Assembly (NCBI GenBank): GCA_014695175.1
Contig: JACJNV010000309.1
Coordinates: forward strand, 1-50,671
Direction: 5' to 3'
DNA: 50,671 nt
Origin: Microcoleus sp. FACHB-DQ6
GTDB lineage: Bacteria; Cyanobacteriota; Cyanobacteriia; Cyanobacteriales; Microcoleaceae
Below are positions 10,719 to 40,228 of this stretch, piece after piece. Position 1 is the first letter of the stretch. Each line of letters starts with the position of its first letter. The position numbers and the translations under genes were made by a program. Below the pieces are notes generated by a model. It was not told the origin of the DNA. It did not search any database and saw nothing but the letters and a program-made list of their open reading frames with translations.

Positions 10719-12155
10719 ATGCTAACTTTAAAATCCCTAAAATCTCATCCAGTATTTTTAATGATTGTCGTGACAACGCTAGTCTTATTTGCCGCCAGCA
10801 GCGCGCGACACGCTTTGTTTCAGTCAACTGCATTCGACTTAGCAATTTTTGACCAAGCAATTTATTTAATCTCCCAAAACCAAACGCCATTTTCCTCTTT
10901 AATGGCAATAAATATTTGGGGCGACCACGCCGCTTTTATTTTCTATCCACTAGCTTTACTTTACAAAATATATCCAGATGTTCACTGGCTTTTTTTAGTG
11001 CAAGCTGTTTCCCTAGCTTTAGGCGCTTGGCCGAGTTGGAGTTTGGCACGTCAAGCCGGATTAAATAATAGCATATCTTGGGCGATCGCCTGTATTTACC
11101 TCCTCTATCCATTAGTATTTAATGTCAATCTCTTCGACTTCCACCCAGAAGTCATTGCTTTACCAGCACTTCTAGCAGCAATCTTAGCCGCGAGGCTGAA
11201 TAAAACCTTGTGGTTTTGTGCTGCTCTTGTATTAGTTTTGAGCTGCAAAGCCGTCCTATCTTTAACTGTGGCTGCGATGGGTTTGTGGCTGTTGTGTTTT
11301 GACAAAAAACGTAATTGTGGGCTCATAGCTCTCTTTCTAGGCGCGGGTTGGTTCCTGGTAGTTACTCAGGCAGTTATACCGTATTTTAATCAGGGAAGAG
11401 AACACGCGGCAATTGGGCGATATCAATATTTGGGCAACTCAGTTTTTGAAATTGCTATTAATTTAATAGTGAAACCAAATCTAGTTTTAGGGCGTTTATT
11501 TTCTTTAGAAACTTTGCAATATTTAGCCTTATTGCTATTACCAGTAATTTGGTGGCTGTCCCCGCGTCATCTGTCATCTTTAATTAGTGCTGTGCCGATG
11601 TTAGCAATGAATATTCTTTCCGATCGCCCCGCTCAGCGGGATTTAGTTCATCAATATTCTGTGCCGATATTGCCGTTTTTGTTGGTGGCCGTAATTTCCA
11701 GTTTAGCAGCTAGCAATCAGCAAAAGGGAAAGACAATATTTGATAGATTGCCAATTCCTAATTATCCATTGCCTAGAGTCATTGTAATTTGGTCGTTGAT
11801 TGCTTTCTTAGCTTTAGGGAAATACGGCTATTTTTGGACTATTTATTTAAATGGGATCGACACTTTGCCAGCTACCAGAGAGGCAATTTCTCTTGTTGAA
11901 ACCAAAGGCAGTGTTTTAACAAATGTTCAGATTGCTCCGCATTTAGCGCACCGCCCTGTAGTAAGATTAACTCAGGCTAACGCGCCGCCTGCAAATCTCG
12001 CAGAATTTGATTATGTATTGCTGAACCTCAGATATCCTGGCTGGCTGAGCGATCGAGAATTTGTTAAAAACCTAGTAACTCAACTAAAAAACACCCCTCA
12101 GTTTCAACTAAAATATCAGCGAGACGACATATATCTATTTACTAGGAGTCATTAG
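10719..12155 (+). CDS. DUF2079 polytopic membrane protein, copy 2
   Basis: A 478-residue tandem paralogue of the preceding gene. Long stretches are almost identical (RHALFQSTAFDLAIFDQAIY; NVNLFDFHPEVIALPALLAA; LVLSCKAVLSLTVAAMGLWL), while the C-terminal soluble domain (from about residue 390, TREAISLVETKGSVLTNVQI) is more diverged. The ATG at 10719 lies 9 bases after the stop of copy 1. The shared Asp-rich first loop (FDLAIFDQ) is what would be expected of a GT-C-like active site. The gene ends directly at the heptamer array at 12154. Whether the two copies work on different substrates or as a heterodimer cannot be told from sequence. Confidence 0.88.
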   Translation: MLTLKSLKSHPVFLMIVVTTLVLFAASSARHALFQSTAFDLAIFDQAIYLISQNQTPFSSLMAINIWGDHAAFIFYPLALLYKIYPDVHWLFLVQAVSLALGAWPSWSLARQAGLNNSISWAIACIYLLYPLVFNVNLFDFHPEVIALPALLAAILAARLNKTLWFCAALVLVLSCKAVLSLTVAAMGLWLLCFDKKRNCGLIALFLGAGWFLVVTQAVIPYFNQGREHAAIGRYQYLGNSVFEIAINLIVKPNLVLGRLFSLETLQYLALLLLPVIWWLSPRHLSSLISAVPMLAMNILSDRPAQRDLVHQYSVPILPFLLVAVISSLAASNQQKGKTIFDRLPIPNYPLPRVIVIWSLIAFLALGKYGYFWTIYLNGIDTLPATREAISLVETKGSVLTNVQIAPHLAHRPVVRLTQANAPPANLAEFDYVLLNLRYPGWLSDREFVKNLVTQLKNTPQFQLKYQRDDIYLFTRSH

Positions 12156-12218: not shown

Positions 12219-13349
12219 CTAATCCTCCACTTTCAAAGCCCTTCTTGCCAACTTCACGTAAGTTTTCACAGTTTCATAAGGCATTTCCAAATCAGCAGCA
12301 ATATCAAACAAAGATTCCCCCAATTCCCGGCGCGCCAAAATCGTCGCCCAAGTTTCAGCAATCTCAGCAGCGCGACTTCCGCCTGTACGCTTTCTGTGCG
12401 CCATAAACTTCTCTGTCAATTCATCTATTCGCGCCGCCAATACGCTTTGTATTGACACTTCAGGTAAGGCTTTTGTCAACCATTGTGCCCGCGTTTGTCC
12501 CAATCCAAAAGTTGTTTTGTGGCCAGTACCGCAGTAAGGCGCTAACCGCCCCAAAGCATAAAATAATTGTACAAAATCAGGGCGATTGTGAGCCGATCGC
12601 CCTAGCCCAAATTCCACAGCCCCAGTGAATCCCGTTACCATGCCTTTTTTGCCCGCCGCTACCTTTTGCGACTCCAATTTGTGGCGGCTAATAATTGCAT
12701 TTTCATCAATCCAATTCAAAAATTCTGCTTGGTCAAAATTTACCCCCGAAAAGTTATTCCAGCGGCGCAAATAGCTGTGAAAAACATTTTCGGGAACTGG
12801 CAAAGGGAAGTGATGGCCTTTGCTACGAAAGCTTGTAGGAGTCACAAAACTAAGTTTGATGGTTGGCGACAATGGGGGTTCTGCTGTTAATAATTGCTGG
12901 TAAGTGGTGGGCTCAAAAGCAATATCCCAAGAGCGAATTAGCAGGGGAGCATTTCGCAAATCTATCTCTTCGGGCAAATTTTGCAGCCACTGACTCAGCC
13001 ACTGCACTACTGGCTTTGAAAGTCCTGTTACGTACCAGCGATAAATTCGATCGCCCAAAAGCTGAAATTCTTTGCCACCCGGGAGCAAATCACCTTCCAA
13101 TCCCGAAATAGTAAAGGCTTTTTCGGACTGATCGTCGTGCAAAAGTTTCGATAAATCCGGGTCAGTTTGGTGTACTTGACCTAAAAACCAAGCGTGCAAA
13201 CCTATAGCATACTGCGCGTACAGATAGCTAGCAGCGCCGGGAGTCAATTCAAACACTAATCCGACTAACTCGGTGTCAGCCGGCCAAATCAGCCCAGACG
13301 GAGGAGATTTTCGGTCGCGGGTGCGGGTGCGGTTCGGGGAAGTTGCCAT
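12219..13349 (-). CDS. cas6: Cas6-type CRISPR endoribonuclease with C-terminal HTH extension (orphan)
   Basis: A 376-residue RAMP protein. Cas6 cuts repeat RNA in CRISPR precursor transcripts. Visible features are a His in the expected N-terminal helix (YAIGLHAWF, His51), the central strand SFVTPTSFRSKGHHFPLPVP (168-187) typical of Cas6, and the C-terminal glycine-rich loops GFTGAVEFGL (240-249) and APYCGTGHKTTFGLGQTR (270-287). After the Cas6 core, residues about 305-376 form an extra domain with a helix-turn-helix look: an ARRELGESLFDIAADLEMPY helix, a turn, then ETVKTYVKLARRAL. No other cas gene and no repeat array lies in the window. It may serve an array elsewhere or have a different RNA target. 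Confidence 0.82.
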   Translation of the reverse strand: MATSPNRTRTRDRKSPPSGLIWPADTELVGLVFELTPGAASYLYAQYAIGLHAWFLGQVHQTDPDLSKLLHDDQSEKAFTISGLEGDLLPGGKEFQLLGDRIYRWYVTGLSKPVVQWLSQWLQNLPEEIDLRNAPLLIRSWDIAFEPTTYQQLLTAEPPLSPTIKLSFVTPTSFRSKGHHFPLPVPENVFHSYLRRWNNFSGVNFDQAEFLNWIDENAIISRHKLESQKVAAGKKGMVTGFTGAVEFGLGRSAHNRPDFVQLFYALGRLAPYCGTGHKTTFGLGQTRAQWLTKALPEVSIQSVLAARIDELTEKFMAHRKRTGGSRAAEIAETWATILARRELGESLFDIAADLEMPYETVKTYVKLARRALKVED

Positions 13350-13653
13350 CAGATGCCACTAACAGGGACAGCGCTGTGCTATATTAATTATCCGATTTTT
13401 ATCCCCTTTGGGGGACGATTTTTGAGGGCGATCGACTGCCCCAATCTTTGGGGTACTCCAAAAACCAGGTCTGCCGCCAGTTTCCCGCACCGTCCGGGAT
13501 AGAGAAAAACCAGTAAAAAACCGACAACCTAAAACTAAATCTTTGTCAAGATTTTCCTCATTGTAAGTAAACAGAAATATACAAGTGTTTAAAATCCTAT
13601 TCTGCGCTACAATTGTCAAAAGCTCGTAGCATCCTCAACTCCGATCCTAAACT

Positions 13654-14016
13654 ATGAACACAACAGAAAAATCTAAACTCTCCAACGAAAAAACTTTGGA
13701 GGCGATGAAGAATTTCTCCGAAACCTACGCCAAGCGAACCGGAACTTACTTTTGTTCCGAGCCTTCTGTCACTGCTGTCGTCATAGAAGGACTAGCAAAA
13801 CACAAGGATGAACTAGGTGCTCCCTTATGCCCTTGTCGCCATTACGAAGATAAAGAAGCCGAAGTAAAAGCCGCCTACTGGAACTGTCCGTGCATTCCCA
13901 TGCGCGAGCGCAAAGAGTGTCACTGTATGTTATTTCTGACACCAGATAACGATTTCGCTGGAACTACTCAGGAGATTGGAATGGATCAGATTAAAGCGGT
14001 CAGAGACACTATGTAA
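13654..14016 (+). CDS. ftrC: Ferredoxin-thioredoxin reductase catalytic (beta) subunit
   Basis: A 120-residue protein. With the variable subunit it forms the 4Fe-4S enzyme that passes electrons from photosystem I-reduced ferredoxin to thioredoxin, linking light to redox control of metabolism. The seven conserved cysteines sit in the expected order: TYFCSEP, then APLCPCRHYE, then YWNCPCIPMRERKECHCMLF. Two of them form the redox-active disulfide beside the cluster; the others bind the cluster. Full length, no transit peptide. The ATG at 13654 gives MNTTEKSKLSNEKTLEAMKN. The variable-chain gene is not nearby. The protein is diagnostic of oxygenic phototrophs. Confidence 0.97.
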   Translation: MNTTEKSKLSNEKTLEAMKNFSETYAKRTGTYFCSEPSVTAVVIEGLAKHKDELGAPLCPCRHYEDKEAEVKAAYWNCPCIPMRERKECHCMLFLTPDNDFAGTTQEIGMDQIKAVRDTM

Positions 14017-39695: not shown

Positions 39696-40228
39696 TCATA
39701 CGGTTATTGTCTCAAGGTTGACCGAAATCTGAAAAGCTGCCGAGGTGCCACCGATGGCAAAACCACTCTGGAATAAACTCCCATCTTCGGGAGTTTTATG
39801 CCAATAGAATGACTTGTCTTTTTCCAGATTGGGGCGATCGCCAACACAAAGGGCGATCGACAAAATCCAAATCAATGCCAGCGTCGTCAGCAAACCCGTC
39901 AGCCGTGTCAACCCTTTTTCCTGCAACCGAATCAACACAGCAACTGCTCCTACTAGGGAATATCCGTCAGCTAAACTCATAAACCACCGAAATACATAGC
40001 TTTGGGTACCAACAAGAAGGTAGCGACACCCAGCAAAACTAGGCTGATGCCCAAGAGGGTGGTCATTTTGTCTGCGTCTTCCCATGTGTAGCCAAAGAAA
40101 GAAGTTCTTGCTTCGAGGGTTGCTGGCCCTTTGAGGGAGTGAAAGATGTCGCCGAAGCCTAGAAAGGCTGAGCTGATTAGGTGAATCGCCCTAACGGCGA
40201 AGAAGGATTTTTTTGCCATGCTGGTCAC
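39696..40228 (-). pseudogene. Remnant of an IsiA/CP43'-PsaL fusion gene
   Basis: The upstream part (40228-39977) reads [40 protein letters not shown], then [20 protein letters not shown] and KAMYFGGL, an internal piece of the chlorophyll-binding CP43/IsiA family. It stops with TGA overlapping the ATG at 39980 of a second frame: [39 protein letters not shown] and DGSLFQSGFAIGGTSAAF, which match photosystem I subunit PsaL (compare AHGYFLIGP...; GGLIGALALILVATAAL; WSQFAAGFFVGG). IsiA proteins with a C-terminal PsaL domain are known in some cyanobacteria. Here the N-terminal helices, the middle and the rest are gone and the frame is broken, so it should not make a functional antenna. Confidence 0.78.

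Follow-up and report, generated by a model that had tools for sequence, protein, structure and literature searches.

Why does a gene for a Cas6 endoribonuclease stand by itself in a Microcoleus genome, with an additional domain at its C-terminus, and which RNA might it serve? We analysed this locus within the window, the whole 50,671-nt stretch of DNA presented above, and within the genome from which it comes, a 6.72-Mb draft in 402 contigs. An earlier note, made from the sequence alone, had described the gene as an orphan and had suggested either self-regulation or a target outside CRISPR.

Genomic setting of the cas6 gene

The neighbours of cas6 in the window are two DUF2079 genes, ftrC and a DUF309 gene. 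The principal features of the locus are as follows.

12219..13349, minus strand: cas6, orthologue of Synechocystis cas6-2a, 376 aa with an ATG start (open reading frame, profiles and orthology)
12480..13289, minus strand: Cas6 endoribonuclease core, approximately residues 21-290 (profiles, alignments and model)
12222..12464, minus strand: C-terminal tail, residues 296-376, four helices, sigma-70 region 4-like helix-turn-helix (profiles and model)
13654..14016, plus strand: ftrC (PF02943), divergent neighbour marking the conserved junction
10719..12155, plus strand: DUF2079 membrane protein, the usual neighbour on the other side

The placement of cas6 between DUF2079 and ftrC given in the earlier note is correct, and the locus is both isolated and syntenic. 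A repeat search confirms that there are no CRISPR-like repeats in the 50,671-nt window. The statement that the window contains no other cas gene holds for the three families tested, since genome-wide matches to PF10040, PF01867 and PF03787 are all on other contigs with the exception of the window Cas6 itself. The word orphan is apt for the window and not for the genome, whose III-D effector operon includes no cas6 gene.

Architecture of the window protein

The open reading frame had been read as a Cas6 core with an extra HTH-like tail, and both parts of this reading are borne out. The window protein is a member of the Cas6 endoribonuclease family by profile and by fold. PF10040 matches residues 166-286 (E-value 7.6e-22) and TIGR01877 matches residues 70-286 (1.2e-23), with scores above their cut-offs in both cases (78.3 bits against 25 and 84.6 bits against 58.65, respectively), and PF19308 matches residues 31-84 (4.7e-08). 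The AlphaFold model of the whole protein has a pLDDT of 82.7, and its best Foldseek match among solved Cas6 chains is 4c9d (E 3.2e-15). The glycine-rich loops had been correctly located at about residues 240-250 and 270-287; within the second, the GTGHKTTFGLG loop at residues 274-284 is nearly invariant in the orthologue alignments. His51, which had been named as the Cas6 histidine, gives way to H52 and H71, the histidines that are invariant in both alignments (A1 and A2). Only in a weak HMMER alignment does H71 line up with the histidine of Thermus Cas6A.

Structure prediction, proposed in the earlier note for the C-terminal residues, yields a separate four-helix domain with helices at residues 300-318, 325-342, 347-354 and 358-373, and the tail modelled alone has a pLDDT of 89.0. 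PADLOC model PDLC01151 matches residues 286-373 (6.4e-24) through its C-terminal part, and this Cas6 tail is the sole PDLC01151 match in the genome. The model is described as an xre + Sigma70_ECF-like two-HTH protein that is 'often fused to Cas6'; where such proteins have, by the model description, an xre-type N-terminus, the window protein has Cas6. The fusion is therefore real and not new, having been recorded beforehand by the authors of the PADLOC model. PF08281 (Sigma70_r4_2) scores 23.8 bits against the window tail, below its gathering score of 25.7, and weakly matches 40 of 40 orthologous tails (E<=1; best 7.4e-07). The top Foldseek matches of the tail are sigma-E region 4 and related domains, the best being sigma-E region 4 on -35 DNA with an E of 0.26, and none reaches E<=0.001. 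By these sequence and model comparisons the tail resembles sigma-70 region 4, short of being classed as a member, and may bind DNA. The likeness to sigma-70 and ECF sigma proteins lies in the region 4 HTH, and no other sigma domains are reported in the window protein.

Over 12 ortholog pairs, dN/dS is 0.14-0.26 for the whole gene and 0.04-0.47 for the tail, the highest tail value coming from a pair that includes a broken copy (G018, see below). Purifying selection acts on the tail as it does on the core. In titles and abstract openings, with subscription papers mostly outside the search, we saw no function assigned to a Cas6-HTH fusion; the term 'helix-turn-helix' is absent from the searched text of PMC3575380 and PMC11026444, as is 'sigma' from that of PMC11026444.

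Orthology with Synechocystis Cas6-2a

The same architecture was sought in other cyanobacteria, as the earlier note had advised, and full-length orthologues that include the tail were found. The window Cas6 is 48% identical over 357 aa, tail included, to a Cas6 encoded at 62908-64011 of pSYSA, where the gene sits between the III-Dv effector genes and csx18-cas1-cas2. We equate this Cas6 by position with slr7068 (Cas6-2a) because the available text of PMC3575380 places cas6-2a beside CRISPR2; the record has a different locus tag. The window protein is thereby likened to Cas6-2a of Synechocystis sp. PCC 6803 (type III-Dv/CRISPR2), to which it is orthologous over its whole length. Whereas cas6-2a adjoins effector, array and cas1-cas2, the window gene is alone.

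The functional parallels come from papers on the orthologue and would extend to the window protein by analogy. In the accessible text of PMC3575380, a cas6-2a knock-out leaves CRISPR2 precursors unprocessed, and CRISPR3 crRNAs are unaffected by any of the three cas6 knock-outs. Cas6-2a was co-expressed for the III-Dv effector, yet is absent from the purified complex as described in the searched portion of PMC11026444. A figure legend of the 2025 classification indicates that most type III systems apparently rely on a Cas6 provided in trans (PMC12669027).

The tail of Cas6-2a recurs in a second protein encoded on pSYSA at 66936-67976 (L178:12937-13977, SGL_RS00985), beside CRISPR2. It is a hypothetical protein that matches PDLC01151 at 6.4e-172, with an xre-type N-terminus by the model description, and is a possible partner or regulator.

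CRISPR-Cas systems in the same genome

The genome has three Cas6 genes, namely the window copy, a type I-D copy on contig C190 and a paralogue of the latter on C366. The C190 and C366 proteins share the Cas6 core with the window protein at 27-28% identity and, unlike it, have no tail match. The C190 Cas6 lies within a I-D operon beside its own 53-repeat array, together with the only Cas1 of the genome, whereas the window Cas6 stands alone. On C366 (L003), at about 27.7-28.6 kb, is a lone 304-aa Cas6 that is 55% identical to the I-D Cas6; no array is present within 9000-47000 of that contig.

Contig C374 carries a III-D effector operon comprising HTH-WYL, CARF nuclease, Cas10, Cas7, Csx10, Cas7-2x, Csx19 and a TIGR03986 protein, and has no cas6 and no array. 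The earlier note had allowed that a cas operon elsewhere in the genome might already use the window protein, and this is largely the situation found: the III-D effector operon is there, without a cas6. The 6.6-kb contig C253 carries a fragment of a Cmr (III-B) operon that likewise lacks cas6.

Among the matches listed from a search that took repeats ending in GAAAC, arrays are found on C190, C211, C66 and C127. The repeat of the 48-repeat array on C211 (C211:9145-12577, L198), a contig without recognised cas genes, shares AAAACCCTATCAGGGATTGAAAC in its 3' part with the repeat of the C190 I-D array, and these two arrays are I-D-like. The arrays on C66 and C127 have the repeat GTCCCCACTCGCTGGGGAAACTAATTGAATGGAAAC, of a type resembling Synechocystis CRISPR3. 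A genome repeat scan, also suggested by the earlier note, yielded no array of the cognate type (CCCC-N4-GGGG stem), with zero matches to TTCCCCGNAAGGGGANGGAAA at up to 2 mismatches in the 402-contig draft.

Conservation, synteny and decay of the locus

We kept 80 genome-contig loci out of 217 relatives, and 12 of these are close to the window (at least 83% identity). Both ftrC and DUF2079 flank cas6 in seven of the 12 close loci. L205 has ftrC only; L212 and L215 have DUF2079 only, and on their opposite flank the contig ends; and L213 and L214 have ftrC with no DUF2079 within 10 kb. In the sequence around cas6, all 12 are free of cas genes and arrays. Outside the syntenic group, a cas gene or array is present near the orthologue in 32 of 68 loci, and the other 36 have none nearby by BLAST against the Cas proteins of the window's genome and pSYSA only.

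Several orthologues sit directly among their partners. In genomes G068 and G096, the order is array-cas2-cas1-Cas6-III-Dv operon. Phormidium sp. LEGE 05292 (L227) has a 31-repeat array, Cas6 and then a III-D operon side by side; its Cas6 is 63% identical to that of the window, and its operon compares with C374 at 82% for Cas10, 83% for the next Cas7 and 79% for Csx10. Nine plasmid orthologues were examined out of 16 with at least 80% cover, eight of them with an array in a stretch of about 9 kb and seven with a CCCC-N4-GGGG stem in the repeat.

Decay of cas6 has occurred repeatedly at or near the same junction, as in the following copies.

G018:C1:5455462-5456586: cas6 with an in-frame stop
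G015:C294: cas6 remnant between ftrC and DUF2079
G013:C300: cas6 remnant between ftrC and DUF2079

The palindrome described below is intact in G018 and has one change in G015. A search for viral relatives gave 54 pattern matches in viral contigs, none of which was confirmed.

Co-occurrence with type III-D genes and repeats

We scored 118 genomes by hand, 38 with a full cas6 and 80 without. In counts that ignore shared ancestry, repeats of the form CCCCNNNAGGGGAYGGAAAC are present in 21/38 genomes with a full cas6 and 3/80 without, and TIGR03986 is present at E<=1e-13 in 30/38 and 15/80, or above its curated cut-off in 19/38 and 9/80, respectively. Within the genus (29 genomes, ancestry again ignored), TIGR03986 is found in 10 of the 15 genomes with a full cas6 and three of the 14 without, and the CCCCNNNAGGGGAYGGAAAC repeat in four and none. 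TIGR03986 matches weaker than 1e-13 were dropped (G044, G058, G059, G077 and G087). The association has exceptions in both directions. Eight of the 38 genomes with a full cas6 have no TIGR03986 match at E<=1e-13, including G020 (one contig), whose cas6 is intact; G012 likewise has an intact Cas6 and no detected TIGR03986, and G013 has kept a III-D gene (TIGR03986) while its Cas6 copy is a remnant.

Repeat counts per genome use the exact GGAAAC pattern. The pattern TTCCCCGNAAGGGGANGGAAAC at up to 2 mismatches was rejected as too loose, catching repeats that end in TTGAAAC, some of them by a different cas1-cas2 (L182 and L183).

Three very long open reading frames, of 1199, 1440 and 1272 aa, contain several TIGR03986-like stretches (G007:C1:126782-130183, G011:C1:3383093-3387130 and G057:C466, respectively). 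They are possible single-protein Cas7 fusions (III-E/III-I-like) in cyanobacteria.

A repeat-like palindrome upstream of cas6

A repeat-like palindrome, TCCCC-N4-GGGGA, was first noticed in an upstream alignment of 11 genus sequences. Its position in the window, and that of a promoter-like hexamer, are given here.

13402..13415, minus strand: palindrome TCCCC-N4-GGGGA, coding strand TCCCCCAAAGGGGA, starting 66 nt before the ATG
13381..13386, minus strand: putative -10-like hexamer TAATAT (consensus match), 15 nt after the palindrome

This is the only match in the 50,671 bases of the window, where 0.02 would be expected. In a motif-free alignment of the 11 genus sequences, 10/10 arm columns are invariant compared with 47% of gap-free upstream columns. 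The exact palindrome occurs within 150 nt upstream of cas6 in 44 of 78 loci, a count that leaves out L212 and L215, whose matches begin at the contig edge. It occurs in none of 768 upstreams of other ORFs from the same loci, and in a mean of 0.07/78 over 100 shuffles. The palindrome is the new part of our findings; titles and abstract openings, with subscription papers mostly outside the search, gave no earlier mention of cas6 promoters carrying a repeat-like element.

The 45 exact cases, window included, divide into 37 solo sites and eight flagged as array-adjacent, among which L222 may be wrongly flagged. The arms of the solo sites are fixed by the pattern, and between them are 21 different loops, at a similar place across distant cyanobacteria. 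On the 3' side the solo sites continue as A-[TC]-N-N-A-A-A, like a repeat handle, with T/C in 33, A in 35, A in 36 and A in 31 of the 37 at positions 2, 5, 6 and 7; the 5' flank is less constrained. When 24 non-redundant contexts are aligned on the palindrome, a common TAAAAT-like box appears, and the invariance of the arms in this alignment is set by the search pattern and is not evidence. A looser palindrome is present within 260 nt upstream in 51/79 loci. A -10-like box lies 9-13 nt downstream of it in 39 of the 51, at exactly 11 nt in 30, compared with 8.6% for shuffled downstream sequence. A conserved TTGACA is located further upstream of the palindrome.

The element varies among orthologues. 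No looser palindrome is found within 260 nt in 28/79 loci, though their matches run through the tail, and close to the start the exact form is seen in only three of the nine plasmid orthologues (L287, L288 and L290). Synechocystis has a degenerate form, GATTTCCGAAAGGGGATC, in contrast to the exact form of the window. Four loci have TCCCC-N4-GGAGA, in which a C-A mismatch breaks the RNA pair while two TCYCC half-sites are kept.

Where the palindrome would stand, L250, L264, L273 and Anabaena cylindrica PCC 7122 have the final repeat of a neighbouring array, and the palindrome therefore probably descends from a terminal array repeat. In Sphaerospermopsis an array is succeeded by a degenerate palindrome copy at -62. 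CRISPR-leader boxes (TGCGTCGA) were present upstream of cas6 in 0/51 loci tried, out of 80. A plus-strand consensus scan marks the palindrome as terminator-like in the window, but the T run is supplied by a local AAAAA; we rejected the terminator reading because most orthologues outside the genus lack this local AAAAA.

Proposed role of the window protein and its upstream element

The window protein is of an ordinary, characterised enzyme type; what is unusual is its location, and its fusion was already known. We consider it likely that it is a Cas6-2a-type pre-crRNA endoribonuclease acting in trans for a type III-D system. Core, tail, orthology, synteny, co-occurrence and upstream element were all computed here, and we infer that the window copy is active and serves C374. 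Cas6 would recognise a short stem of the CCCC-N4-GGGG type in CRISPR repeats and cut immediately beyond its 3' end, so that an 8-nt 5' handle like ACTGAAAC remains. The resulting crRNA would then be loaded into the III-D effector encoded on C374, and Cas6 would leave the complex. In the ancestor of the genus, cas6 may have come to adjoin ftrC, away from arrays and effector genes. On this account the apparent orphan becomes a testable case of Cas6 supplied in trans. The most likely role of the tail would be regulatory nucleic-acid binding, with the palindrome upstream of cas6 as the best candidate site, and this provides a specific, testable hypothesis for the tail of Cas6-2a-type proteins.

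The palindrome suggests autoregulation of cas6, with either the tail acting on DNA or the Cas6 core acting on RNA, both of them hypothetical routes. The possibility of self-regulation raised in the earlier note has thus gained a candidate regulatory element, and one that is present in many cyanobacteria, where its spacing from a -10-like box is constant in most cases.

Sigma region 4 contacts promoter DNA around -35. It is possible, at rather less than even chances, that the tail, either in Cas6 or in another protein that carries it, binds the palindrome as DNA over the cas6 -35 region and represses or activates the gene. Such control would add to the proposed role in trans rather than exclude it. 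The enrichment of the palindrome upstream of cas6 over controls and shuffles is consistent with an operator, and the usual 11-nt box spacing puts it over the -35 region, the site bound by sigma region 4, on which the best Foldseek match of the tail, at E 0.26, is seen. If the box is the true -10, the palindrome would cover about -37 to -24, and this position, together with the half-sites kept in the four GGAGA loci, favours a DNA operator over a leader hairpin. The second same-tail protein of pSYSA, adjoining CRISPR2, also fits. Against this, tail-bearing orthologues without even the looser palindrome are numerous, the exact form is in a minority of the plasmid orthologues and degenerate in Synechocystis, the -10-like box of the window is 15 nt away and not 11, and the palindrome might instead be bound by a different regulator, for example the HTH-WYL protein from the III-D locus.

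An extended form of this idea, that Cas6 in cyanobacterial III-D systems is two-headed, is rather doubtful. Here the core would cut repeat RNA and the tail would read the palindrome as DNA at its own promoter, the element having been captured from a terminal array repeat. If so, a single motif, recognised both as RNA and as DNA, would set the supply of crRNA, and this circuit would outlast the loss of the array, as in the window.

Alternatively, the palindrome might act as RNA, as a repeat-like hairpin in the cas6 leader transcript that Cas6 binds or cuts, limiting its own expression. The repeat-like 3' flank of the 37 solo sites, set against a less constrained 5' flank, favours recognition as a repeat; live terminal repeats at the palindrome site in the four array-bearing loci named above point the same way, and a long leader could arise from the conserved upstream TTGACA. 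Against it, the position of the -10-like box, in most cases 11 nt beyond the hairpin, implies a transcription start after the hairpin, and four loci have a C-A mismatch in the stem. We regard this mechanism as unlikely.

The chances are similarly poor that the palindrome is a functionless relic, inherited from an array that has since disappeared except for its terminal repeat. Live terminal repeats at the exact position in several loci, and the Sphaerospermopsis array with its degenerate copy, are what a relic would predict, but the arms are invariant in the genus against a far less conserved upstream background, and solo sites with 21 loops hold a similar place in distant cyanobacteria.

A domesticated Cas6 with a non-CRISPR RNA target is very improbable: within the genus the gene does stand alone, in a syntenic position and subject to purifying selection, including G020 versus G012 where no TIGR03986 was found, but its repeated decay at one junction is in keeping with an immune component that can be dispensed with, orthologues beyond the genus are accompanied by arrays and III-D genes, and the move from isolation to a non-CRISPR target made in the earlier note is unsupported given the III-D operon without cas6 and the characterised Synechocystis orthologue.

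Two other features were recorded in the window. An IsrR antisense RNA is located at 39979-40084 on the plus strand (Rfam RF01419, 57.5 bits), and positions 1018-1393 hold nine overlapping copies of a 27-nt-periodic repeat.
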